Part shown: positions 37,217-54,261 of the stretch, piece by piece | Layout of the letters: the number at the start of each line of letters is the position of its first letter | Numbering within the stretch: position 1 is the stretch's first letter | Assembly (NCBI RefSeq): GCF_013372185.1 | Contig: NZ_CP053830.1 | Coordinates: 558,001-622,000 of the forward strand | Length of the DNA: 64,000 nt | Direction of reading: 5' to 3' | From: Campylobacter lari subsp. lari | GTDB lineage: Bacteria; Campylobacterota; Campylobacteria; Campylobacterales; Campylobacteraceae | Translations under genes and position numbers: made by a program | Notes under the pieces: model-generated | What the model saw: the letters and a program-made list of their open reading frames with translations, nothing else | Database searches by the model: none | What the model was told of the DNA's origin: nothing

Positions 37217-37276
37217 CTAGTTTGCGTTGACAACAATAGTGCAAAGTAGTATAATAACTATTAAGATTTGTAGCAT
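37217..37276 (-). CDS. 19-residue hydrophobic peptide, candidate type I toxin A
   Basis: MLQILIVIILLCTIVVNAN, from ATG 37274-37276. GGTGG (37284-37288) lies seven bases upstream. On the mRNA this ribosome site pairs with CCACC (37298-37302), and the stem is extended by AAAT/ATTT. A minus-strand TATAAT (37349-37354) would start a 5' leader with an 11-bp hairpin (37310-37335). A homologous peptide with the same layout is at 52821-52883. Size and composition resemble E. coli Ibs peptides; toxicity untested. Confidence 0.65.
   Translation of the reverse strand: MLQILIVIILLCTIVVNAN
37227..37255 (+). promoter_or_regulatory. antisense promoter inside toxin A ORF
   Basis: Consensus TTGACA (37227-37232), 17-bp spacer and TATAAT (37250-37255) on the plus strand, lying within the minus-strand peptide ORF. 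A full -35 box is rare in Campylobacter, so this is likely strong. The same arrangement recurs at 52831-52859. Confidence 0.75.
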
Positions 37277-37350
37277 CTTATTTCCACCGCCTTTCTAGGT
37301 GGTAAATTAGTGCTAAGGGTGGCGACCCTTGGCACCACACCCTTTATAAT
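37262..37350 (+). ncRNA. candidate antitoxin RNA A
   Basis: A transcript from the promoter at 37227-37255 would start near 37262 and run antisense to the start codon, ribosome site and leader hairpin of the peptide mRNA. The 11-bp hairpin 37310-37335 (loop GGCG) near its expected 3' end is followed only by CCCTTTAT, so the exact end is unclear. Confidence 0.5.
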
Positions 37351-37372
37351 TATACACAAACCTTTCTTAAAT

Positions 37373-37398
37373 CCTTTATTTTAGATATTAAATAAAGG
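37373..37398 (+). promoter_or_regulatory. hairpin covering the ribosome site of the 372-residue protein
   Basis: CCTTTATTT (37373-37381) pairs perfectly with AAATAAAGG (37390-37398) around an 8-base loop. The AAAGG in the right arm is the ribosome site for the ATG at 37406, so this structure could limit translation. Confidence 0.5.
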
Positions 37399-37405
37399 TA
37401 AAAAA

Positions 37406-38524
37406 ATGGCACATTATAACCCACAACAAGTAGTATTTAATCCAAGTCTTGGTGTAATCCAAAATGCAGGAAAAGTAGGCGGAGTTTTATACGACAGTAT
37501 GAAACAATATAGAGAAGAAGAAAACAAAAGAAGACTTTTGGCGCAGCAAGATGAAGAATTAAAAGCTCGACAAGAGCAAAATGAGATTAATAATGCTTTT
37601 TTAAATAATAATTTATTGCAAAAGGAAAGAGCTTTTGAGTATGCTATGGAGCAAGATAGAATAAAGAATAATTTAGCTTTGCAAGATTTGCTTTTTAAAA
37701 AAGAAAAAATAGACTTAGAACAAGCAAAAGAACAAAAACAAAACCAACTTTTAGCAGAACAAGCAATGCTTAATTTACCAAGTTATACAAAGTCAAATCC
37801 GGAGATGAGAGCAATAGAAGAAAGATTTAATACCATAAAAAAAGCCGGTGGCAGTTCTTATTATGATGGGCAAGGGCTTTTGGGCGGAACTTGGCAAAAT
37901 ATAAAAGGACTTTTTGGAGCAGATAATATAAATGATGCTCAAGATAGCTTATTTAAATTTATGAGTGATGGTATTTATAATGAAAAAGTTAGAAGAGATA
38001 CAACTTATAACAGAACAAGGCATGATGAAATTTATAAAGAGCCTTCAGCTTGGAAGCCACAAACCATAAATGCTAAAGAATTTGAAAGAATAACAAGAGA
38101 TTATATAGCTGTTAATGAGGCTAAGATTAATGCTTACTATGATGAGCAAATGGCAAAGATTTCTAATTTAAAAAATCCTTACATTAATCATCTTTATGAA
38201 GAGCAAAGACAAAAAAGTTTAAAAGGTTTTAGAGAGGGTTTAGCAAAAAAGCTTAGTGATTATTATATTAAAGATGGAAAGTATGACAAACCTAGCGAAA
38301 AAGCAATTACAGTAGAAAATCAAAAAACAAAAGAGGCTCAGCAAAATTCTCATAACTTATTAGCGTTTGCTAATAATCAAAAATTTTATGATGTGAATTT
38401 AGGAGGCTTTGAGGCACAAATTTCTGAACCTGATTCCAATGGAAATGTTATTTTAATCAACAGCGTAGGAAAAAGAAAACAAGTAAGCTTGGAAGAACTA
38501 AGAAAAGAGGGGTTAGTAAAATGA
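37406..38524 (+). CDS. helical virion protein, probable ejection protein
   Basis: A 372-residue protein with extended coiled coil (about 28-125; Glu/Gln/Lys-rich) and a mixed second half. It overlaps the 1211-residue gene by 4 bp. Such pairs (medium coiled-coil protein then giant protein) are typical internal/ejection proteins of short-tailed phages. No enzymatic motif seen. Confidence 0.6.
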   Translation: MAHYNPQQVVFNPSLGVIQNAGKVGGVLYDSMKQYREEENKRRLLAQQDEELKARQEQNEINNAFLNNNLLQKERAFEYAMEQDRIKNNLALQDLLFKKEKIDLEQAKEQKQNQLLAEQAMLNLPSYTKSNPEMRAIEERFNTIKKAGGSSYYDGQGLLGGTWQNIKGLFGADNINDAQDSLFKFMSDGIYNEKVRRDTTYNRTRHDEIYKEPSAWKPQTINAKEFERITRDYIAVNEAKINAYYDEQMAKISNLKNPYINHLYEEQRQKSLKGFREGLAKKLSDYYIKDGKYDKPSEKAITVENQKTKEAQQNSHNLLAFANNQKFYDVNLGGFEAQISEPDSNGNVILINSVGKRKQVSLEELRKEGLVK

Positions 38525-41500
38525 GCATAAGAGAATTTTTAAAAGAAAAACCAAGAGAAAGTGATATTTTAGCTTTTTTGCAGCAGGATAATAAAGATAA
38601 GAATGATTATTTAGATGAGTTAAGAAATGACATAGATAAAGCAATTACACAAAATAGAAATAATATCTCAATATATAACATACAAGACCAAAATCTAACA
38701 AATCCACTCGGCCATATTAGTCAATACAAGCGAGATTTGTATGATTATGAAAATAATCAGGAAATGAATGCTGATGATTTAAGTGATTATATTTTAGATA
38801 AACAATCTCAATTTAATGCTTCTAAACCTATTTTTGCTGATGATAACGAAGTGGCGAGAAAAAGCAATCAGTTTATGAGAGATTTAGGAGATGAGCTTCA
38901 AAAATCCGGAAGAGGAAAACTTTTACAAGATAGCGATGGTTCATATTGGGTTAAAGATGTAAAAGGTAATTATGCTAAGGTTCAAGGAAGCCTAATAGGT
39001 GACTTATATCGTGGGATTAGAGATAATGGTGCTAGTGTAGCACTAGGAACAGCAGGTGCAATTGGCGGTGGTATGTTAGGTGGTGGAGTTGGTATGGTCG
39101 CTGGGGGTGCATTAGGTGCATCTTTAGGAGCTGGATATGATTATTATGGGAACACAAAAGATACAAATCAGGAAGCAAATTTAAAAGAAGCTCTTATGCT
39201 TATGGGGGAAAATGCTGGACTTTCTTTAGTTGGAGATGCAGCTTTCGCCGGAGTAGCTAAAGGTGCAAGAACTTTAAAAAATACATACGCTATGGCAAAA
39301 ACAGGGTCAGCTGTCGGCAAAGATATGATAGATGGGATAGCTGTTAAGGGAAATAGAGTTATTGATAAAATCAGTCAAAAAGATATTCCCATAGTTGGCA
39401 AGTTTAGTGATGGTGGCTTGCAAAATGCTGAAACAATTTTTAACAATCTTACAAAAAATGTGGAAAATAAAGCCCAAATTGATGAATTAATATTAAAAGA
39501 AAACCCAATATACTTAGAAAATGGAAAACCTACAATAGAAATATTAAAAAACCTTGTTGAGCAAGGACTTAACAAAAACAATCCGCAATTTATACAAGAT
39601 AGTGCTAAAAGAACAAGTGCTATTTTAAAAAATATTTCTAATGCTTTGTCGGGTTACCCCACTACACAAAGAAGAGAAATACTACTAAAAGCAGCACAAG
39701 CGTATCCTGAAATAGGTAGTTTTTTAGATGATGTTTTAAAAGCTGATAAAGATGCTAGCATTTCTTTTTTAAACATAGTTAAAGAACAAGATGAGATGTT
39801 TAAGAATAAAACTGGTTTAAGTGGGGAGTTTGATGTTAAGGCTTGGCAAAAAGATAATAGCTCTTATAAAAAAAGAATTAATAATGAATATGCTCAAGCT
39901 ATAAAAAGTATAGATGAGCTTAACAACGGCTCAATAAGGTTAAGCAAAGAAGATTTAGCAAAGATTGAAGAGTTTAAAAACAACAATTTTTTAGAGCAAG
40001 ATATAAAAACAAATATTAGTAGCTTTCTAGAAGATGCTATTGATAAAGACTTAAGTGCTGAGCAAATATTTAACTTAAGAAGTGCTATAAATAAGCAATT
40101 AGCCACAGGAAACAAGACATATAATACTAAAGAAGCTTATAGACTAGTAAAAGATACTTTAGATGAAACTATGATAAAAAATGCAAGTGATAAAGAACTA
40201 GCAAGGAAGATTTTAGAAGATGCTAATAAAAACTATGCGTTAAAAGAAAATTTTAATAATAGTTATCTAGGAAAAATAAAAGACCAAGAAACGCCCGAAG
40301 CGCTCGCACAAAGAATAGCTAATGGTGCTAGAAATATCAATGAAGATAAGGATTTAAAAAGAGCTTTTGAAGGTATGAATGAAGCAGAGCGAAAAGCAAA
40401 TGAAAAACATGTTTTTAATGCATTACTAGCAAAACATAGAATTGAAGATATAGGATATGATTTTAAGAGCCTAGCAAAAGATATGGATAATGTAGAATTT
40501 GTAAGTAAAGACTTAAAATATGCAAAAGAAGTAGTAAATGTTTATGCAAAAATTTATCAAAACAATAAAGACTTAATAATGACGGCTTTAGCTAGTAGTG
40601 GCAAAAAAACAAATTCTGCAATGGCTACAACAATAAGTGGTGTTTTTGATAGAATATTAATAAGCGGTGTTTTTGCTAGAATACATGCTTTAGCTCCTTT
40701 TATGAAAAGTGCTAAAGAGCAAGCGTTAAGAAATCAAATATTAGATGCATTAAAACTTGCTAAAACCAACAAGCAGATTATAAAAAATCTCAAAAACATA
40801 AAAATATCAAATCCAGAACAAAGTAAAATCTTTAAAGATGCTTTGGATAATTATATTAAAGTAGATAAAGAGCAAAATAAAATATTAAAAGATGCACTAA
40901 TAAAAGAAGGGCTTATCAAAGGCGATAATTTTTATATGGATAAGCCTAATCCTAAGGATAGTTCTTTAAAATTTATAGGCAAAAATGGTAAAGAATATAT
41001 TATAGATAAAAATGCCAGAAGCGAATGGATGAAAACTTTTAATCTTAAAAGTATTGATGATGATTATATCCCTAATATGCCAAATGAAGTAAAAATGGCT
41101 TTAAAAGATAGAGAAATAAAGCTTACTAAGGGGAGTTTGTTAAAACTAGTTGAAAGAGATAGAATTAAATATATACCACATATAAAAGATACTTTAGAAA
41201 ATCCACAAGTAGTCTTAAGAGATAAGGATGATTTTGTATTTATTAAAAACATAGATAACCAAACTTATTTTACAAGCATAGGTAAAGATTATGAAACGCA
41301 TTTAACTATAATTAGCAATTCGCCTAAAAAGCAAAATAATATAAGAAATAAAATGAAAAATGCTAAAGTAGTGTATTATAATAATGCGAGAGCCTTACCG
41401 ACATCTAGGGCATCTTCAGAGACAAAACAAGTGTCGTTCTCTAATGGAAATTCTACCCAAGATAAGCCTAAAGAAAACTTAATTGAGAAATTAAAGGAGG

Positions 41501-42156
41501 ATAGGAAAAACAAGAAAAGAGTTAAAGAAAAACTTGATGAAAAAATTAAAAATCAAAAAGAGAGCGATGAGGATAAATGGAAAAGATTTGATAATTTTTT
41601 AAAAGAGAATAAAGACTATAATCTTGATGTTATGGGTAATTTAGATGTTGTCACTAGAGAATTTATACTCAATGCTAAAAAAAAGACACATAAGGGCAAA
41701 AAAGCTGATATACCTGATCTAATGCGTTCTAAAATAGAAAATGAATTAAACATCAAGCCTTTAAAAGAATTTGGAAAAAATTACGCAGAGTATTACCATG
41801 ATGGAAAGGGTGCTTTGCAAAAATTACTCATTGAAAAACAAGGACAAGTAGCAGGTGCCTTTCATAGAAAAGACTTAGGGGATATTGATTTGGTTTGGGG
41901 AGATGGTAACTTTGGATTAAGTCATATTGTTAATCGAAGAGAAGAAGATTTTATTAAGCAAGGGCTAAATAAAATAGAAGCAAAAAATAAAGCTTTAAAT
42001 TTTATAAAAGAAATAGAAAATATTATAAATAATGGAAATGTAAAAAAGGGTAATAATAGAGCTTTTATTGATACTAAGAATAGTAGAGTTATGGTAGCAC
42101 TTGATTATAAAGGTAAAGATAAAAAGTGGATTATAACTGCATATAATTTTTATTAA
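38521..42156 (+). CDS. giant virion/ejection protein with two nuclease-like (PBECR-type) domains
   Basis: A 1211-residue protein. Residues 170-205 form a glycine-zipper membrane segment (GAIGGGMLGGGVGMVAGGALG). A long helical middle follows. Around residues 835-945 a domain with KLTKGSLLKLVERDRIKYIP and a strand-rich end resembles PBECR folds. The C-terminus (about 1120-1211) has GAFHRKDLGDIDLVWGDGN, GLSHIVNRR, NNRAFIDTKNSRVMVALDY and ends WIITAYNFY, the barnase/EndoU/colicin-E5-like pattern known in phage head proteins. It may deliver RNase activity at infection. Confidence 0.75.
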   Translation: MSIREFLKEKPRESDILAFLQQDNKDKNDYLDELRNDIDKAITQNRNNISIYNIQDQNLTNPLGHISQYKRDLYDYENNQEMNADDLSDYILDKQSQFNASKPIFADDNEVARKSNQFMRDLGDELQKSGRGKLLQDSDGSYWVKDVKGNYAKVQGSLIGDLYRGIRDNGASVALGTAGAIGGGMLGGGVGMVAGGALGASLGAGYDYYGNTKDTNQEANLKEALMLMGENAGLSLVGDAAFAGVAKGARTLKNTYAMAKTGSAVGKDMIDGIAVKGNRVIDKISQKDIPIVGKFSDGGLQNAETIFNNLTKNVENKAQIDELILKENPIYLENGKPTIEILKNLVEQGLNKNNPQFIQDSAKRTSAILKNISNALSGYPTTQRREILLKAAQAYPEIGSFLDDVLKADKDASISFLNIVKEQDEMFKNKTGLSGEFDVKAWQKDNSSYKKRINNEYAQAIKSIDELNNGSIRLSKEDLAKIEEFKNNNFLEQDIKTNISSFLEDAIDKDLSAEQIFNLRSAINKQLATGNKTYNTKEAYRLVKDTLDETMIKNASDKELARKILEDANKNYALKENFNNSYLGKIKDQETPEALAQRIANGARNINEDKDLKRAFEGMNEAERKANEKHVFNALLAKHRIEDIGYDFKSLAKDMDNVEFVSKDLKYAKEVVNVYAKIYQNNKDLIMTALASSGKKTNSAMATTISGVFDRILISGVFARIHALAPFMKSAKEQALRNQILDALKLAKTNKQIIKNLKNIKISNPEQSKIFKDALDNYIKVDKEQNKILKDALIKEGLIKGDNFYMDKPNPKDSSLKFIGKNGKEYIIDKNARSEWMKTFNLKSIDDDYIPNMPNEVKMALKDREIKLTKGSLLKLVERDRIKYIPHIKDTLENPQVVLRDKDDFVFIKNIDNQTYFTSIGKDYETHLTIISNSPKKQNNIRNKMKNAKVVYYNNARALPTSRASSETKQVSFSNGNSTQDKPKENLIEKLKEDRKNKKRVKEKLDEKIKNQKESDEDKWKRFDNFLKENKDYNLDVMGNLDVVTREFILNAKKKTHKGKKADIPDLMRSKIENELNIKPLKEFGKNYAEYYHDGKGALQKLLIEKQGQVAGAFHRKDLGDIDLVWGDGNFGLSHIVNRREEDFIKQGLNKIEAKNKALNFIKEIENIINNGNVKKGNNRAFIDTKNSRVMVALDYKGKDKKWIITAYNFY

Positions 42157-42927: not shown

Positions 42928-43051
42928 TATTTTCTTTATATAACTTTGCTTGTTTTTCTCTTATAATAGCATTTAAATCCCATAGATTAAAGCATTCATT
43001 TTTTATAGGTCTGCCTATAAAACCATCTACAAAAGCTTGTGTTTTTGTCAT
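42875..43051 (-). CDS. 58-residue hypothetical protein
   Basis: ATG at 43049-43051 with AAGGAATAAC upstream; reads MTKTQAFVDGFIGRPIKNE then a charged helix. The conserved-looking FVDGF(I)GRP start appears in small phage proteins beside DUF2335 genes in my recollection. Unknown function. Confidence 0.55.
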   Translation of the reverse strand: MTKTQAFVDGFIGRPIKNECFNLWDLNAIIREKQAKLYKENIEFREKQIEKIAKTKNT

Positions 43052-43157
43052 TTTGTTATTCCTTTTTTTACACACTTATTATATAATATCACAAAATAAT
43101 TAATATTTTATTGTGTTTAAGAATAAAGCAAAAAACATTCCTATTTATATTCTATAC

Positions 43158-43367
43158 CTATTTTATAAAAGGTTTTATAGATTTTGAAATTTCATCTAAA
43201 ACTTTTGCTTTTTCATAATTAATAAGCCAACTATTTACCCAGCCGGGTATAGAATTTGTTTGTCTCCAATTGGTTACGCCGGTATAGCTCATTTTAACCA
43301 TTTCAGAAAAATCTTTTTTGCTTAAACTGATTGATTTTAATTTATTCTCAAATTCATCATAATTCAT
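43158..43367 (-). CDS. HTH regulator of the late-region island
   Basis: A 69-residue DNA-binding protein: KDFSEMVKMSYTGVTNWRQ is a helix-turn-helix and PGWVNSWLINYEKAK follows, a form common in Campylobacter prophages. It diverges from the Rha gene; repeated AAAACAAAT/ATTTGTTTT sites between them are the likely operators. Confidence 0.8.
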   Translation of the reverse strand: MNYDEFENKLKSISLSKKDFSEMVKMSYTGVTNWRQTNSIPGWVNSWLINYEKAKVLDEISKSIKPFIK

Positions 43368-43434
43368 TTTAACACCTTTACAAATAAAATATTTATTATT
43401 TTACAAAAAAACAACTAAAATATTTATAAAATTA

Positions 43435-43494
43435 TTGACAATATAACTAAATAATGTTATAATTTACTCATAAAACAAATGATTTATTTGTTTT
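43435..43494 (+). promoter_or_regulatory. Rha promoter and operator
   Basis: TTGACA (43435-43440), 17-bp spacer and TATAAT (43458-43463). Just downstream is the inverted repeat AAAACAAAT-GATTT-ATTTGTTTT (43472-43494), followed by another AAAACAAA half-site at about 43501-43508, next to the ribosome site. A repressor bound there would block the promoter. Confidence 0.8.
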
Positions 43495-43515
43495 AAATCA
43501 AAACAAAGGGAAAAA

Positions 43516-44241
43516 ATGGAAAAATTAGCTGTAATTAATGGCGTAGGTGTAGAGTTGGAGGTAGCCAACGACCAAGTAACGACTACCTCTTTAAGTGTGG
43601 CGGCGGTTTTTAATAAACGCCACGATAATATTATAGCAAAAATTAATGAATTACCACAAGATGAGTTTAACGCCCTTAATTTTAAGGCGGTTGAATATAA
43701 AGATAAAAAAGGCGAGTTAAGACCTTGCTACAACCTAACTCGTGATGGTTTTTCTTTACTTGTTATGGGTTTTACAGGCGAAAAAGCCTATAAATTCAAA
43801 GTTGAGTTTATCAAAGCTTTTAATGAAATGGAAAAATGCTTAAAAAACTTAGAACAAGAGCAAATGCAAAAACTAGCTTTTAGACAAAGCTTAGGTTACA
43901 AATCTCAACTTAAACAGCAAAAGCTAAAATATGAAAATGAGATTAAAGCTTTAAAGTATGATTTAGAACATAAAAACGAGTTAAGCTTTAAAAGAAAACT
44001 TAGCGATGAAGAATTATTAGAGCTTAGGAAATTTCTAGCAAAAGATTATGAAATAGTTTGTTTTAAAAAATGGGAGTATATGTTATTTGCTGAAAGCATT
44101 TCAAGAAAAAACTATAAACTAGACAAAGCAAATGGTTTTTGTATTTATAAAAGTATAGAAGAAAAGTTTAATTCTAGGCTTGATTATTATAAACATTATG
44201 ATGAATATGAAGAAAAGTGGGGTAACTTATTAAGAAGGTAA
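43516..44241 (+). CDS. Rha-family phage regulatory protein
   Basis: A 241-residue protein. The N-terminal Rha domain (about 15-110) shows TTSLSVAAVFNKRHDNIIAKI, then YNLTRDGFSLLVMGFTGEKAYKFKVEFIKAFNEME. A coiled coil and a C-terminal domain follow. Rha proteins interfere with lytic growth when host integration factor is missing. Its strong regulated promoter suggests expression during lysogeny or a switch of the island. Confidence 0.88.
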   Translation: MEKLAVINGVGVELEVANDQVTTTSLSVAAVFNKRHDNIIAKINELPQDEFNALNFKAVEYKDKKGELRPCYNLTRDGFSLLVMGFTGEKAYKFKVEFIKAFNEMEKCLKNLEQEQMQKLAFRQSLGYKSQLKQQKLKYENEIKALKYDLEHKNELSFKRKLSDEELLELRKFLAKDYEIVCFKKWEYMLFAESISRKNYKLDKANGFCIYKSIEEKFNSRLDYYKHYDEYEEKWGNLLRR

Positions 44242-44282
44242 AAGTTTTTTAATTTATTTCAAAATATACTAGTTTTGAAATA

Positions 44283-44333
44283 GCCATTTTTGTCAAAATC
44301 TCCAAAAAATATCAAAGGAGATTTTAAAATGGC
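44283..44333 (+). promoter_or_regulatory. hairpin hiding the ribosome site and start codon of the major capsid gene
   Basis: GCCATTTT (44283-44290) and AAAATCTCC (44295-44303) pair without mismatch with GGAGATTTT (44317-44325) and AAAATGGC (44326-44333): 17 bp, one 4-base bulge, 13-base loop. Both the GGAG ribosome site and the ATG (44329) are in the stem. A further 9-bp inverted repeat lies just upstream at 44256-44281. Confidence 0.8.
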
Positions 44334-45345
44334 TTTGTCATCTATGGACTTTACCCCACCAGCAACACAAAATGTTAAATTAAAACCTAGTGTATATGAA
44401 AAGATTATACAAATAGGTGCAAGCGAGACACCACTTTTAAACAAAATAGGCACATCAAGTGTTACAAGCCCACTGTTACATTCTTGGCTTACAGACACAT
44501 TAGCAGATCCAAAGAAAAATGCTAATTTGGAATTAAGTAAATTTAATGGCGAAACAAAAAACACAACTCAAAAAACATCTAATGCAACACAAATTTTTAT
44601 TACAGAAGTTTCAGTTACCACAGCTTTAATGAAGGCTAAACAATATGGCGGTAATGAGATGGAATATCAAGTTGGTAAAAAGACAAAAGAGCATAAAAGA
44701 GATATAGAATATGCTTTGTTTGGATTAGGTCGTGATGATGATGCAAAAGTGTCAGTGTTTAAAGAGCATATTCAAGCGCAAAATGGCGTAAGTGGAGAAA
44801 TGGCAGGGTTGTTTCACTATATAGCAAAAGGACAAACAAACTTTAGAGATGGAAAAAGAGGCAATGTATTAGCATTTGATGAAGCAAAAGATTGGAGCGG
44901 AACTCCTAGCTTGCTTACTGAAGATAAATTAAGTCAAATTTTACAAAGCATTTGGGATAGTGGTGCCACACCTAAAGATGTATTTTTAGGAGCTAGTTTA
45001 AAACCGGCTATTAATAAACTCGCTACTAGGATTTTTGGAAATGAGAAAAATCTAGTTGGAAATGTTATGAGTCTTGAGACAGATTTTGGAACAATCAATT
45101 TTCACTTACATAGACTATTAAGCCCTAAATATGGATTAGGTGATGTTTTAATAGCAGGTGATTTTGAGTTTATGAAACACGGGCTTTACATTCCTACTTT
45201 TATTGAAGATGTACCTACTGATGCAACAGCAAAAGCAAAAAGATTTTACACTCAAAGCACATTAGAAGTAAGAAATGCTGATGCATTTGCTATAGGTGTT
45301 GGGCTTAGTAGTGTAGAAGGTGGAGCTTTAAAGCTTAAAAAATGA
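44329..45345 (+). CDS. major capsid protein (DUF5309 / SU10-type, HK97 fold)
   Basis: A 338-residue coat protein. The start MALSSMDFTPPATQN and the segments KIGTSSVTSPLLHSWLTDTLADP, KTSNATQIF and MEYQVGKKTKEHKRDIEYALF follow DUF5309 coat proteins. The frame opens at 44290, but GGAG fits the ATG at 44329. It is separated from scaffold by 7.5 kb, which is unusual, and its start is in a hairpin. Confidence 0.88.
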   Translation: MALSSMDFTPPATQNVKLKPSVYEKIIQIGASETPLLNKIGTSSVTSPLLHSWLTDTLADPKKNANLELSKFNGETKNTTQKTSNATQIFITEVSVTTALMKAKQYGGNEMEYQVGKKTKEHKRDIEYALFGLGRDDDAKVSVFKEHIQAQNGVSGEMAGLFHYIAKGQTNFRDGKRGNVLAFDEAKDWSGTPSLLTEDKLSQILQSIWDSGATPKDVFLGASLKPAINKLATRIFGNEKNLVGNVMSLETDFGTINFHLHRLLSPKYGLGDVLIAGDFEFMKHGLYIPTFIEDVPTDATAKAKRFYTQSTLEVRNADAFAIGVGLSSVEGGALKLKK

Positions 45346-45740
45346 AAAGTGTATTAGTTAGGGATATTATCTTAAAGAAAATGTCCAAAGAAAGAACTAG
45401 TGTTGATGATAAATTTATAAAAGCCTATATTATGGAGGCTTTTTATTATATTTGTGGCAAATGTGAGCCTAGCGTACTCACTAAAACCATAAGAGAAGAT
45501 GACCAAGTGGTCTTAAGAAACACTAGAAACAATGCATTTTTGATAGTCCCTGATGAGCCAAATTTTGAAGATGAACAAGAACATTTAATGATAGATGAAA
45601 GCCTTTGCTACGCTGTTATTAATTATGTATGTTTTTTGATGAGCAAAGGCGAAAATGTGATGTATTTAAAGCTTTGCAATGAAATTATCAATGATTATAT
45701 TAGTAACGATGGAAAGGAGCTTGAAAATGCACACTTGTGA
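45342..45740 (+). CDS. probable head-tail connector protein
   Basis: A 132-residue helical protein right after the coat gene (4 bp overlap), the usual place of adaptor proteins. The sequence (VDDKFIKAYIMEAFYYICGK and LCYAVINYVCFLMSKGE) has the composition of gp6/gp7-like adaptors. Assignment rests mainly on position. Confidence 0.55.
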   Translation: MKSVLVRDIILKKMSKERTSVDDKFIKAYIMEAFYYICGKCEPSVLTKTIREDDQVVLRNTRNNAFLIVPDEPNFEDEQEHLMIDESLCYAVINYVCFLMSKGENVMYLKLCNEIINDYISNDGKELENAHL

Positions 45741-45912
45741 TACATATAAAAAATTTATCAGAGCAAAGAGTTATGATGATTATGAAAAAAGTATTACAAA
45801 CTTAGATTTTATAGCTTATTTGGATACTAAAAAATGGCTTGAAGCAATGGATGATTTGTTGTTATTTTGCCAAAGAAGAATAAAAGATAGCGATTTTTAT
45901 ACAGGGGAGTAA
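45727..45912 (+). CDS. small virion protein, function unknown
   Basis: 61 residues from the ATG at 45727, which has AAAGGAG at good spacing; the frame extends upstream to 45679. Reads MHTCDTYKKFIRAKSYDDY; helical and charged. Overlaps the connector gene by 14 bp. Confidence 0.6.
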   Translation: MHTCDTYKKFIRAKSYDDYEKSITNLDFIAYLDTKKWLEAMDDLLLFCQRRIKDSDFYTGE

Positions 45913-45913
45913 A

Positions 45914-48900
45914 ATGGTAAGTTTGGCTGAATTGAAAACAGGCAAAGAAAAGCTAGAATTAATTAATCAAATTTTATTAAGAATTGATACTATAGCTAGA
46001 GCTTTAGACAATACAAGACTTGATGAAATTGTCGGTTTAAAAGAGAGCGTGAATTCTTTACACGAACAAACACTAGAACTAAAACAAGAAGTTTTAACAA
46101 TGTATACTAGTTTTAGTGAAAATAAAAAAGATTTTGATACTAAATTTTCTAGTGTTAATGAAAAATTTAGCATTATGCAAGAGCGTTTTAGTTTTATAGA
46201 GCAAGTTTATAATGATTTTTCAAGTTCTAAAGAAGAACTTGAGTTTATAAAAGGCTTTATAGAAGAAAATAAACCTGTATTTGAAAGCTTAAAAGATGAT
46301 TTATCTAAATATGAAAGTATGAAGATAGATCTAGAAGTCATTATCACAGAAGCTACAAATAATACAAAATTATCAAAAGAATATTTTGAATTAAGCTCAA
46401 AAATAAAAGATGATATTTTAAGAGAATTAGAACATTGTAAAGATTTGGTGCAAGAGTTAAACTATAGTGCTGATGAGCTTAGGGGACTAAAGCCAGAGCT
46501 TTTGCAGATAAAAAAAGAAGTAAACGAGCTTTCATCGCAAGCTAGTAAAGTAGTTTTAGATGCAAGCGAAATTATAAAAAATAAAATAAATACTATCTTT
46601 TTTGAAAATCAAAGATTAAATCAAGAAATGATAGATAGTGTCAAAAAATTAGAGGAAATAAAATATGATATTGGCATAAAGTATAAAGAAATAATACAAG
46701 CTTATAATCTTTTACTAGAAACCAAAGAGAGTTTAGAAGAGTTAAAAGAAGTTATTGCTTTATACAAAGAATTTGAAAACGACATTAAATCATATTCAGA
46801 GCTTATAAAAAATTTCAAAGAACAAATTGCGAATTTAGAAAGTGATTTAGAAAATAAAGCACAAGGTTTACACGAAGCTTTAGAAGCAAAAGGTGAACAA
46901 GTAATCTCATCCATAGAAACAGCAAAAAATGAAGCTATTGTTAAATTTGATGAGCTTGTTGCAAAATGTGAAGGATATAAAATACATTTTGAGCAAAGTT
47001 ATGATAGGTTTAATCAAAGAGCTTTAATAGCTAATGAAGATTTGGGGAGACTAGCAGAAGTTGCTAAAAAAGAGCTAGGCAATGACAAGTTAATCTATGA
47101 GACAGAATTAAAAGCTTTGCGTGATAGCACTATCGAAGCTATGAATGATATCTATCAAAAAATGTGCGATGATGCAACAGGTATAGTTTCCAATATAGAA
47201 GAAAGAGAAAGTAATTTTAGAGAATATATAGAAACATCAAAAGCTTTGATTGATAATTTAACTCAAATTTTTATCACTACTTATCAAGGGTATAAAAATG
47301 AATTTGATGTTTTTGTAAATAATCATTTGCAAAATTTACATACTCAAAAAGAAGAATATAAACAAGAACTTGATGTAAAAAAAGAAGAATGTAAAGTCGA
47401 ACTTGATGCAAAAAAAGATGAGTGTTTGGAAGAGATAGATGCAAAGGCTATTGATTATGATATAGTGAGTATAAAAGAAGAGCTAGAATATATACTTTCT
47501 TTACTTGAAAAAGATGAAGAGCTAACAAATAAAGAAGAGAGTATAAAAAATTTAGAAGATGAAATAAAAAATAAAGAAGAAATTATAAAGGATTTAGAAG
47601 AAAAAATAGAACAAGGCTTATCTCAAGAGCCACCTCAAGATGTTAGTAACTTAGAAAATCAAAAAGAACAAATAGAAGAAGAACTCAAGCAAGCTCAAGA
47701 GGAATTAACACAAAAAAAGAACGAATTAGAGCAAATTTTAGAAGATAAAAGTTTGGTTGATTTAAAGACTTTAAATGAAGCTCTTGCTTTAAAGATAAAC
47801 AAAAATGGCGATGAAAGTATAAATGGAATAAAAACATTTACAGAAAATGCAGTATTTAATAAAGAGGTGCAAGTTAAAGGAGCGTTAAGAGCTTTACTTG
47901 ATTTGATAATAACTAGAAATCTAAGTGTAACTGGCACTACTACTTTGAATGGAAATACCACAACGAAAGTTTTTACAGCCACAGAAAATGCAGTATTTAA
48001 CAAAGAGGTGCAAGTTAAAGGAGCGTTAAGAGCTTTACTTGATTTGATAATAACTAGAAATCTAAGTGTAACTGGCACTACTACTTTGAATGGAAATACC
48101 ACAACGAAAGTTTTTACAGCCACAGAAAATGCAGTATTTAACAAAGAGGTGCAAGTTAAAGGAGCGTTAAGAGCTTTACTTGATTTGATAATAACTAGAA
48201 ATCTAAGTGTAACTGGCACTACTACTTTGAATGGAAATACCACAACGAAAGTTTTTACAGCCACAGAAAATGCAGTATTTAACAAAGAGGTGCAAGTTAA
48301 AGGAGCGTTAAGAGCTTTACTTGATTTGATAATAACTAGAAATCTAAGTGTAACTGGCACTACTACTTTGAATGGAAATACCACAACGAAAGTTTTTACA
48401 GCCACAGAAAATGCAGTATTTAACAAAGAGGTGCAAGTTAAAGGAGCGTTAAGAGCTTTACTTGATTTGATAATAACTAGAAATCTAAGTGTAACTGGCA
48501 CTACTACTTTGAATAATACTCTAACCGCAAATGGAACTACTAATTTAAATGGAAATACTACTTTTAAGCTTATTCCAAATTGTGCAGTTAATCCAACAGC
48601 TGATAATCATTTAGCTAGAAAGTGGTATGTAGATTATGGTGGTGGTATTAAAAATTTAGGAACAGTAGGTTCAACAAACATAGACTTAAGACAAGCTCAA
48701 CATTTTATTTTAACAGCAAATGCAAATACAGAGTTGGGCATAGCTAATTGGGGCGGGGCAGGTAAAAGTGGAACCATAACCATAAATAATTGTCAAAACA
48801 TAAAATCTTTTAAAGCACCATTTAAATTTAGAATAGCACAAAGTGGTTTTAGTGGAACTGAGACCTTTGCTTATTTTTGTATAGCAGCAAATAACATCAG

Positions 48901-48916
48901 ATTAGTAAGGTCTTAA
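45914..48916 (+). CDS. tail stalk/fibre protein with 47-residue tandem repeats
   Basis: A 1000-residue protein. Residues 1-610 are nearly continuous coiled coil, suited to a trimeric stalk. Residues 644-867 contain 4.8 nearly identical 47-residue repeats, each with ALRALLDLIITRNLSVTG and TTTLNGNTTTKVF. The C-terminal 120 residues (WYVDYGGGIKN to the end) are likely the tip. It is the prime candidate for host attachment; repeat number may vary between isolates. Confidence 0.8.
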   Translation: MVSLAELKTGKEKLELINQILLRIDTIARALDNTRLDEIVGLKESVNSLHEQTLELKQEVLTMYTSFSENKKDFDTKFSSVNEKFSIMQERFSFIEQVYNDFSSSKEELEFIKGFIEENKPVFESLKDDLSKYESMKIDLEVIITEATNNTKLSKEYFELSSKIKDDILRELEHCKDLVQELNYSADELRGLKPELLQIKKEVNELSSQASKVVLDASEIIKNKINTIFFENQRLNQEMIDSVKKLEEIKYDIGIKYKEIIQAYNLLLETKESLEELKEVIALYKEFENDIKSYSELIKNFKEQIANLESDLENKAQGLHEALEAKGEQVISSIETAKNEAIVKFDELVAKCEGYKIHFEQSYDRFNQRALIANEDLGRLAEVAKKELGNDKLIYETELKALRDSTIEAMNDIYQKMCDDATGIVSNIEERESNFREYIETSKALIDNLTQIFITTYQGYKNEFDVFVNNHLQNLHTQKEEYKQELDVKKEECKVELDAKKDECLEEIDAKAIDYDIVSIKEELEYILSLLEKDEELTNKEESIKNLEDEIKNKEEIIKDLEEKIEQGLSQEPPQDVSNLENQKEQIEEELKQAQEELTQKKNELEQILEDKSLVDLKTLNEALALKINKNGDESINGIKTFTENAVFNKEVQVKGALRALLDLIITRNLSVTGTTTLNGNTTTKVFTATENAVFNKEVQVKGALRALLDLIITRNLSVTGTTTLNGNTTTKVFTATENAVFNKEVQVKGALRALLDLIITRNLSVTGTTTLNGNTTTKVFTATENAVFNKEVQVKGALRALLDLIITRNLSVTGTTTLNGNTTTKVFTATENAVFNKEVQVKGALRALLDLIITRNLSVTGTTTLNNTLTANGTTNLNGNTTFKLIPNCAVNPTADNHLARKWYVDYGGGIKNLGTVGSTNIDLRQAQHFILTANANTELGIANWGGAGKSGTITINNCQNIKSFKAPFKFRIAQSGFSGTETFAYFCIAANNIRLVRS
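47843..48514 (+). repeat. 141-bp tandem repeat in the fibre gene (4.8 copies)
   Basis: Copies begin at 47843, 47984, 48125, 48266 and 48407; the last is cut near 48514. Copies are almost base-identical (AAT versus AAC near the start of copy 1). In-frame 47-codon units mean copy number can change by recombination without breaking the frame. Confidence 0.95.
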
Positions 48917-52820: not shown

Positions 52821-52883
52821 CTAATAAGCCTTGACTATAATTATACAAAGTAGTATAATTATTACTAGAATTTTATGGTTCAA
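52821..52883 (-). CDS. 20-residue hydrophobic peptide, candidate type I toxin B
   Basis: From TTG 52881-52883 the peptide is MNHKILVIIILLCIIIVKAY, homologous to peptide A (shared IL, ILLC, V-x-A pattern). GTG at 52890-52892 is an alternative start. AGGTGG (52892-52897) is the ribosome site and lies in a 9-bp stem (52887-52895 with 52904-52912, one mismatch). A minus-strand TATAAT (52953-52958) and an 11-bp leader hairpin (52913-52940) complete the same layout as locus A. Confidence 0.6.
   Translation of the reverse strand: MNHKILVIIILLCIIIVKAY
52831..52859 (+). promoter_or_regulatory. antisense promoter inside toxin B ORF
   Basis: TTGACT (52831-52836), 17-bp spacer and TATAAT (52854-52859) on the plus strand within the peptide ORF; CAAAGTAG before the -10 box is the same as at locus A. 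Confidence 0.75.
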
Positions 52884-52950
52884 TTTAATCACCACCTAAC
52901 TGAGTGTTGATTAACACCAAAGGCGGCCACCTTTGGTGTTCCACCCTTTG
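52866..52950 (+). ncRNA. candidate antitoxin RNA B
   Basis: A transcript from the promoter at 52831-52859 would start near 52866 and cover the peptide start, ribosome site and leader hairpin (AACACCAAAGG / CCTTTGGTGTT, loop CGGCCA). It might read on into the spanin genes; no T-run marks its end. Confidence 0.5.
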
Positions 52951-52990
52951 AAATTATACTCAAATCTTACTTAAACTTCTAAAATAAGAA

Positions 52991-53383: not shown

Positions 53384-53525
53384 GCTTTTAGAATTTGATA
53401 GAGCGCATAAACCTATAGTTCAAGATGAAAAAGATATATTAAAAGCTTATAGTGAGCTTTTTTATCACTATAAGCAATGTGAGATCAATATAGATAAAAT
53501 AAAGGAGTTGAATGATGAATTATGA
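53250..53525 (+). CDS. outer-membrane lipoprotein spanin (Rz1-like)
   Basis: 91 residues from ATG 53250, with AAGGG six bases upstream inside the Rz-like gene (different frame); ATG 53247 is an alternative. A basic start and hydrophobic core end in the lipobox LIGC (Cys about residue 25). The mature part is helical. The overlap with Rz (53250-53383) covers the signal peptide. Confidence 0.8.
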   Translation: MLKTIYPKAMKLIPLSFLMLCLIGCGSKTQVLTKIQIQKVQIPNELLEFDRAHKPIVQDEKDILKAYSELFYHYKQCEINIDKIKELNDEL

Positions 53526-54261
53526 GCAAAGATTAAATCAATTTAAAAAAATATATCCCGAAATTTTAGAGTTAAGCTTGGCGGAAAAATCCCCATTTGG
53601 AGAATTAAAAAAGATATTAGATGATAGCATAAAAAATGATGTTATTAAAAATGAAGAGCAGTTTAAAACTTTAGCGAATGCATTATCTTTAGTAGGCCAA
53701 AGCATAGTAGCACAAAGCCAAGTAACATCTCTTAATATGATTTTGCAAGGCGATGAAAATGAAGTTAATTTTTATGCTAATGAGTTAAAAAAAGCACAAA
53801 CAGAAACAGAAAAAGCACAAACTGATTTGGTTGTAAGACAGACTAAGCAAATAGATGATGATATTGAATTAAAAGAGCAGGGGCTTAATATTGAAAGAAA
53901 TATTTCCATAGAGAAAATTAATTTATTAAAAGCACAAACAGAAACAGAAAAAGCACAAACTGATTTGGTTGTAAGACAGACTAAGCAAATAGATGATGAT
54001 ATTGAATTAAAAGAGCAGGGGCTTAATATTGAAAGAAATATTTCCATAGAGAAAATTAATTTATTAAAAGCACAAACAGAAACAGAAAAGAAAAAACCAG
54101 CACTTATAGTTAGACAACAAGAACAAATAGATGATATGTTAAGAATAGAAATGGCAAAAGTTGCACAAGGATATAGTTTTGGGCTAAGCGCAGGTGGACT
54201 TGAAATACCAAAAGAGTTGGAAGCTTGGGTAAGAGAAAAAATTGAAAATATAGATAAATGA
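53515..54261 (+). CDS. protein with two 46-residue identical repeats
   Basis: About 248 residues; the second of two ATGs has the better spacing to AAAGGAG. Helical throughout. Residues about 95-186 are two identical 46-residue units with QTDLVVRQTKQIDDDIELKE, a pattern found in phage proteins that carry 'AQTEKAQTDL' units. Function unknown; end-of-operon place suggests a minor virion protein. Confidence 0.7.
   Translation: MNYEQRLNQFKKIYPEILELSLAEKSPFGELKKILDDSIKNDVIKNEEQFKTLANALSLVGQSIVAQSQVTSLNMILQGDENEVNFYANELKKAQTETEKAQTDLVVRQTKQIDDDIELKEQGLNIERNISIEKINLLKAQTETEKAQTDLVVRQTKQIDDDIELKEQGLNIERNISIEKINLLKAQTETEKKKPALIVRQQEQIDDMLRIEMAKVAQGYSFGLSAGGLEIPKELEAWVREKIENIDK
53794..54090 (+). repeat. 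138-bp exact tandem duplication in the gene at 53515
   Basis: Copy 1 from 53794, copy 2 from 53932, and the first 20 or so bases again at 54070. The copies are base-identical over the full 138 bp, so the duplication is recent or kept uniform by gene conversion. Confidence 0.93.

Follow-up and report, generated by a model that had tools for sequence, protein, structure and literature searches.

The start site of the major capsid gene in a Campylobacter lari subsp. lari prophage can fold into a strong hairpin, which is probably a lock on read-through transcripts, bypassed by a capsid promoter nested in its 5′ arm. The window analysed is a stretch of 64,000 nt (NZ_CP053830.1, positions 558,001–622,000), to which all coordinates refer; every result was computed from sequence. 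RNA running in from upstream would hold both arms of the hairpin, so that SD and AUG would be hidden and hardly translated in the cell. The dedicated capsid promoter, made up of a dyad, TAGTTT, CAAAAT and a predicted +1, would overlap the DNA encoding the 5′ arm. RNA begun there would start in the loop without this arm, leaving the ribosome site open. Capsid synthesis would thereby be tied to the firing of a late promoter, probably under a phage regulator at the dyad, and the phage's own capsid transcript would probably be the sole source of coat protein.

The sequence-only reading had taken the gene to encode the major capsid protein. Its product matches PF17236 SU10_MCP (E = 1e-61) and the major head protein family phrog_1328 (E = 3e-101), and the N-terminus MA(L/I) is kept in nearly all relatives. 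The prophage extends from the integrase gene (16466; Pfam) to about 55850. One phage record (PV052265.1, L026) is classed as Rountreeviridae/Minhovirus, perhaps in error, since its capsid shares 79% identity with the present SU10-type one.

Folding of 44275–44345 gave two helices separated by a bulge (Table 1), with GGAG and ATG both paired, as had been claimed. The bulge of four bases and one block of 9 bp also stood; the other block has 9 bp rather than the 8 bp first counted. The minimum free energy is −21.6 kcal/mol against −8.0 ± 2.5 kcal/mol for shuffled sequences (z = −5.4), and none of 200 shuffles was equally stable. When 303 genes with ATG and SD, taken from 464 kb of this genome (the window and 20 sampled stretches), were ranked by the cost of opening SD through AUG, the capsid gene came third with 16.0 kcal/mol (mean 4.3, SD 2.7). 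Strong start-site hairpins are thus rare but not unique in this genome, both costlier sites belonging to host genes. By eye, these two (L099:19033 and L086:19222, both on the minus strand) resemble peptidase E and a small flagellar chaperone-like protein. A search of 43000–46000 against Rfam gave no match near the gathering threshold.

Table 1. Features around the capsid start in the window (coordinates of the 64,000-nt stretch).
Feature	Position	Strand	Basis
rha promoter TTGACA-17-TATAAT, likely read-through source	43435–43463	+	12/12 consensus match, with TG
Rha-type regulator gene, upstream of capsid leader	43516–44241	+	PF09669, phrog_2657
Dyad TATTTCAAAA-TATACTAG-TTTTGAAATA, 28 bp, probable regulator site	44255–44282		10/10 arm pairs
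−35-like TAGTTT (consensus TAGWTT)	44270–44275	+	Dyad-anchored columns +2 to +7
Hairpin outer helix, AGCCAUUUU/AAAAUGGCU, 9 bp	44282–44290/44326–44334	+	Folding of 44275–44345
Hairpin inner helix, AAAAUCUCC/GGAGAUUUU, 9 bp	44295–44303/44317–44325	+	Same fold
5′ arm of outer helix, anti-start-codon	44282–44290	+	Fold
Bulge UGUC, 4 nt	44291–44294	+	Fold
−10-like CAAAAT, preceded by TGT (extended −10)	44294–44299	+	Columns +26 to +31
5′ arm of inner helix, anti-SD; common to −10 and stretch preceding +1	44295–44303	+	Fold
Hairpin loop, 13 nt	44304–44316	+	Fold
Predicted transcription start, A, in hairpin loop	44306	+	A at +38 in 19/19 clusters
3′ arm of inner helix, with SD core GGAG at 44317–44320	44317–44325	+	Fold
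3′ arm of outer helix, with ATG at 44329–44331	44326–44334	+	Fold
Major capsid gene, SU10-type, 338 aa	44329–45345	+	PF17236, phrog_1328

The promoter emerged from a profile of 19 clusters aligned on the dyad centre, nothing downstream being used for anchoring. At fixed spacing from the dyad, A is found at +27, +28 and +29 in 18, 17 and 18 of the 19 clusters, and T at +31 in 17. Conservation is sharp at these four columns and at +38, and there is little at +16 to +25 and +32 to +36. This is the pattern of a putative promoter with a −10 element nAAAnT, a +1 A seven bases on and a TAGWTT 18 nt upstream of the −10. The −35-like columns weigh less at +2 to +4, where the anchoring rule favoured T(A/G)(A/G/T) and made them partly circular. 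Many members lack the −12 T of the −10, and the −35 departs strongly from consensus; an activator or a special sigma factor would therefore be needed.

Relative to the predicted +1, the inner 5′ arm spans −11 to −3. Because the predicted start lies in the loop, its transcripts would be without the 5′ arm and could not form the lock. The computed opening cost in the window is 14.5 kcal/mol for read-through RNA and 2.8 kcal/mol for RNA from the predicted start. Over 23 relatives the means are 9.6 and 2.9 kcal/mol, the shorter RNA having the lower cost in all 23, whereas cutting the leaders of other genes to 24 nt as a control shifts the cost by 0.76 kcal/mol. If the assignment is right, the capsid transcription start is predicted for a widespread prophage family of Campylobacter and relatives. 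A literature search for transcript data on Campylobacter prophages returned CJIE4, which has an HK97-type capsid, and DA10.

The fold had been expected to need opening by a factor, by passing ribosomes or during transcription. Such opening is probably unnecessary, as the conserved nested promoter predicts transcripts that lack the 5′ arm. Alternatively, every capsid transcript might carry the lock, with a phage or host protein, an RNA or temperature opening it in trans; this would fit the strong and conserved sequestration, and we consider it unlikely. It would also have fitted our first promoter idea, in which TAGWTT inside the dyad served as the −10 and transcription began near 44282, leaving the hairpin whole. 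That candidate was rejected: it is broken in L031 and L165, and the profile has a better −10 and +1 downstream, whose conservation at fixed spacing places the start in the loop. Neither an RNA nor a protein partner was found for opening in trans. As for an RNA thermometer, opening at 37°C costs about 14–18 kcal/mol here and in several relatives, which is not the marginal stability of such an element and would be too high for one operating near 37–42°C.

The dyad has 10-bp arms and an 8-bp centre. It occupies −51 to −24, its centre 37.5 bp upstream of the predicted start, and its distance to the ATG, counted from its start, is 72 to 79 nt in nearly all Campylobacteraceae members. In 21 leaders of the second group, all 10 arm pairs have changed on both sides and 79% of the cells pair; this covariation score was reached by none of 500 shuffles, and slid registers pair in 28–46%. 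Between close relatives the centre is exactly inverted (ATAGGTGT in L165 and ACACCTAT in L166; TTAGGTAA in L170 and TTACCTAA in L171), the pattern that small inversions at a palindrome would leave. Genome G029 carries, in one prophage, three dyad copies with the common core GACAAATNNNCTAGTTTTGTC: one precedes the capsid gene, one a DUF5675 gene and one a small gene close to the structural genes, and each is followed at roughly the expected distance by an AT-rich −10-like sequence. Within the window, no further dyad copy was better than chance.

Three same-core copies and a centre in both orientations favour a DNA site, and the dyad is probably bound by a late regulator, for which it would be a handle in these prophages. 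An RNA hairpin in the leader (a protein site, a processing site or a terminator) would also explain covarying arms and a partly conserved centre, but it is improbable: the covariation counts hold a single G–U cell, although close relatives of the window have a G·T pair at one position, and the inverted centres and the copies upstream of three genes speak against it. A terminator reading was rejected, as there is no T run. Pairing of the dyad 3′ arm with the hairpin 5′ arm, considered as an on-state, was found in some members only. A weak lock on a second gene is possible at L073:7366–7435: a dyad copy there precedes a DUF5675 gene, and the SD AAAGGT has a potential pairing partner in ATCTTT.

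Homologues came from genomes of the genus (49), the family (153) and the order (399), together with IMG/VR and phage records. Their leaders often carry an upstream arm complementary to the SD, the AUG or both, and both arm and target vary. In the window AAAAUCUCC pairs with GGAGAUUUU, and in L029 AUUGCCAUU with AAUGGCAAU. L053, close to L029 but with changed arm and spacer, has UUGCUCUU with AGGAGCAA; L165 has AUAGCCAU with AUGGCUAU and L059 UCCUUGAA with UUCAAGGA. The distant L045 forms a perfect SD stem of 12 bp. In the nearest relatives, most substitutions in the anti-start arm exchange C and U opposite a G, and pairing persists as G–U; one pair of this arm is broken in L113. The lock is weak or absent in L031, L034, L054 and L171 (arm stems of 3–5 bp), and H. 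pullorum prophages have none.

The statistics were run after the pattern had been noticed; the swap test and the downstream columns were not selected by it. With the start region held constant and the upstream part alone shuffled, p ≤ 0.05 was reached in 11 of 44 capsid leaders and in 4% of 358 other genes from the same prophages (difference in opening cost, p = 1e-5; in z-scores, p = 0.004). Nine of the 44 leaders belong to lytic gammaproteobacterial phages with the same capsid family, and none of the nine has the lock. In the swap test the leader–start duplex was −12.3 kcal/mol for own pairs and −9.35 kcal/mol for swapped pairs (p = 5e-5) over 34 Campylobacterota clusters, which are related and so not fully independent. 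The result was significant in each of three Campylobacterota sub-groups as well, and null in the set of gammaproteobacterial lytic phages and H. pullorum (p = 0.94). The swap-test z was −7.6 for capsid leaders against −0.17 ± 0.86 in 60 random sets of other prophage genes. Among the control segments, those taken downstream and the reversed leaders were null; two from farther upstream were borderline (p = 0.04–0.05).

The 12-nt arm at +27 to +38 from the dyad centre, taken alone against its own start region, gave z = −6.6. Its partner is the SD in L001 and L059, the AUG in L029, L052 and L165, and the SD again in L053, and most of the partner-specific pairing is held by the unconstrained nucleotides +32 to +37. 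Since the leaders pair with their own start far better than with the starts of others, and by different solutions, the own-partner pairing across the Campylobacterota relatives points to selection. The translational lock proposed in the sequence-only reading, with conservation across related prophages as its check, is supported in this form: the pairing is kept in Campylobacterota by compensating change, some members lacking it. It is very unlikely that the hairpin has an incidental origin or does no more than stabilise the mRNA, its SD/AUG pairing being a by-product of AT-rich promoter sequence. The AAAAT in the −10 does complement the AUUUU that follows the SD, a promoter constraint might bias what the arm pairs with, and some relatives have no lock; but the outcome of the swap and shuffle controls and the alternation of SD and AUG as partners are not what composition would lead one to expect, and the partner-specific pairing falls mostly outside the constrained columns.

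A lock bypassed by its own promoter also suits the upstream neighbourhood. The rha-type gene ends 87 nt before the capsid ATG, and no plus-strand terminator-like site was found between its consensus promoter and the capsid gene; in L009-type relatives a strong CAAAGTAGTATAAT promoter precedes the capsid gene by about 300 nt. Transcription would therefore be expected to read through into the capsid gene, and a lock sparing only the phage's own capsid transcripts would be a sensible answer. On the basis of this upstream promoter and the rha-type gene without a terminator-like site, a role of the hairpin in lysis–lysogeny, as first suggested, is plausible. More tentatively, each phage lineage may have a private dyad and a private lock: capsid would be made only from transcripts whose start depends on the cognate regulator, co-resident prophages could not cross-activate each other's capsids, and read-through would be harmless. 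It is likewise possible, though doubtful, that in one relative the DUF5675 gene and the small gene beside the structural genes are under the same control.

A palindrome with 10-bp arms, probably an operator, lies just 3′ of the rha promoter −10 (43471–43495), and a divergent 69-aa gene is found nearby at 43158–43367. Elsewhere in the prophage, a protein of 1211 aa (38521–42156) has PBECR2 and terminal PBECR1 nuclease-like domains, and the translations of 45914–48916 and 53512–54261 contain perfect internal repeats, with units of about 47 and 37 aa.

The proposed arrangement has a precedent in T4, where genes e, soc, 49 and the intron gene I-TevI have SD and/or AUG sequestered in transcripts from upstream (PMC3014915). 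In gene e the 5′ strand of the structure coincides with late promoters, so that late mRNA lacks this strand, is unstructured and is well translated; relatives keep the arrangement (PMC3014915). As in gene e, SD and AUG are paired here in the computed upstream-derived RNA, a promoter predicted from the conserved −10 and +1 overlaps the 5′ arm and would give transcripts without it, and relatives maintain the structure through compensating change. T4 is a lytic phage with gp55-type late promoters, which have TATAAATA as −10 and no −35, whereas these temperate Campylobacterota prophages have nAAAnT with TAGWTT 18 nt upstream and a dyad at about −37.5, and do not fall into that class. Unlike in T4, the locked gene is the major capsid gene. 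If our reading is true, the T4 lysozyme-type device, by which only transcripts of the right origin are translated, serves the most abundant virion protein of an unrelated temperate lineage. In the open-licence literature, no earlier description of a lock of this kind on a major capsid gene was found.

The translational operator of T4 gene 43, where the gp43 protein binds the RNA and represses (PMC3014915), likewise has a hairpin upstream of the ribosome site and sequence overlapping that site. In the capsid leader, by contrast, the structure itself would hide the site, with no binding protein implied.

In activator-dependent phage late promoters of the P2 Ogr kind, a dyad lies upstream of the −10 and there is no good −35. 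The predicted capsid promoter resembles them in both respects, and in one relative several late genes carry the element. It differs in that the dyad centre is at about −37.5 and the arm sequence varies from phage to phage.

A separate repeated element was noticed before late genes. It consists of a TTGAC(A/T)-N17-TATAAT promoter with invariant CAAAGTAGTATAAT, followed by an RNA of about 110 nt with two stem-loops, and occurs at 37222–37360 and 52826–52965 of the window and at L072:13530–13680, L072:19830–19985, L077:9330–9500 and L025:1256–1367. The second stem is strong and covarying (GUGCUAAGGG/CCCUUGGCAC in the first copy). The first copy had no Rfam match; the element may act as a put-like antitermination leader, or it may be a small RNA present in several copies. 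Another possible lock lies at 37373–37398, where CCTTTATTT pairs with AAATAAAGG, the SD of the gene at 37406 (opening cost 8.4 kcal/mol, p = 0.05).
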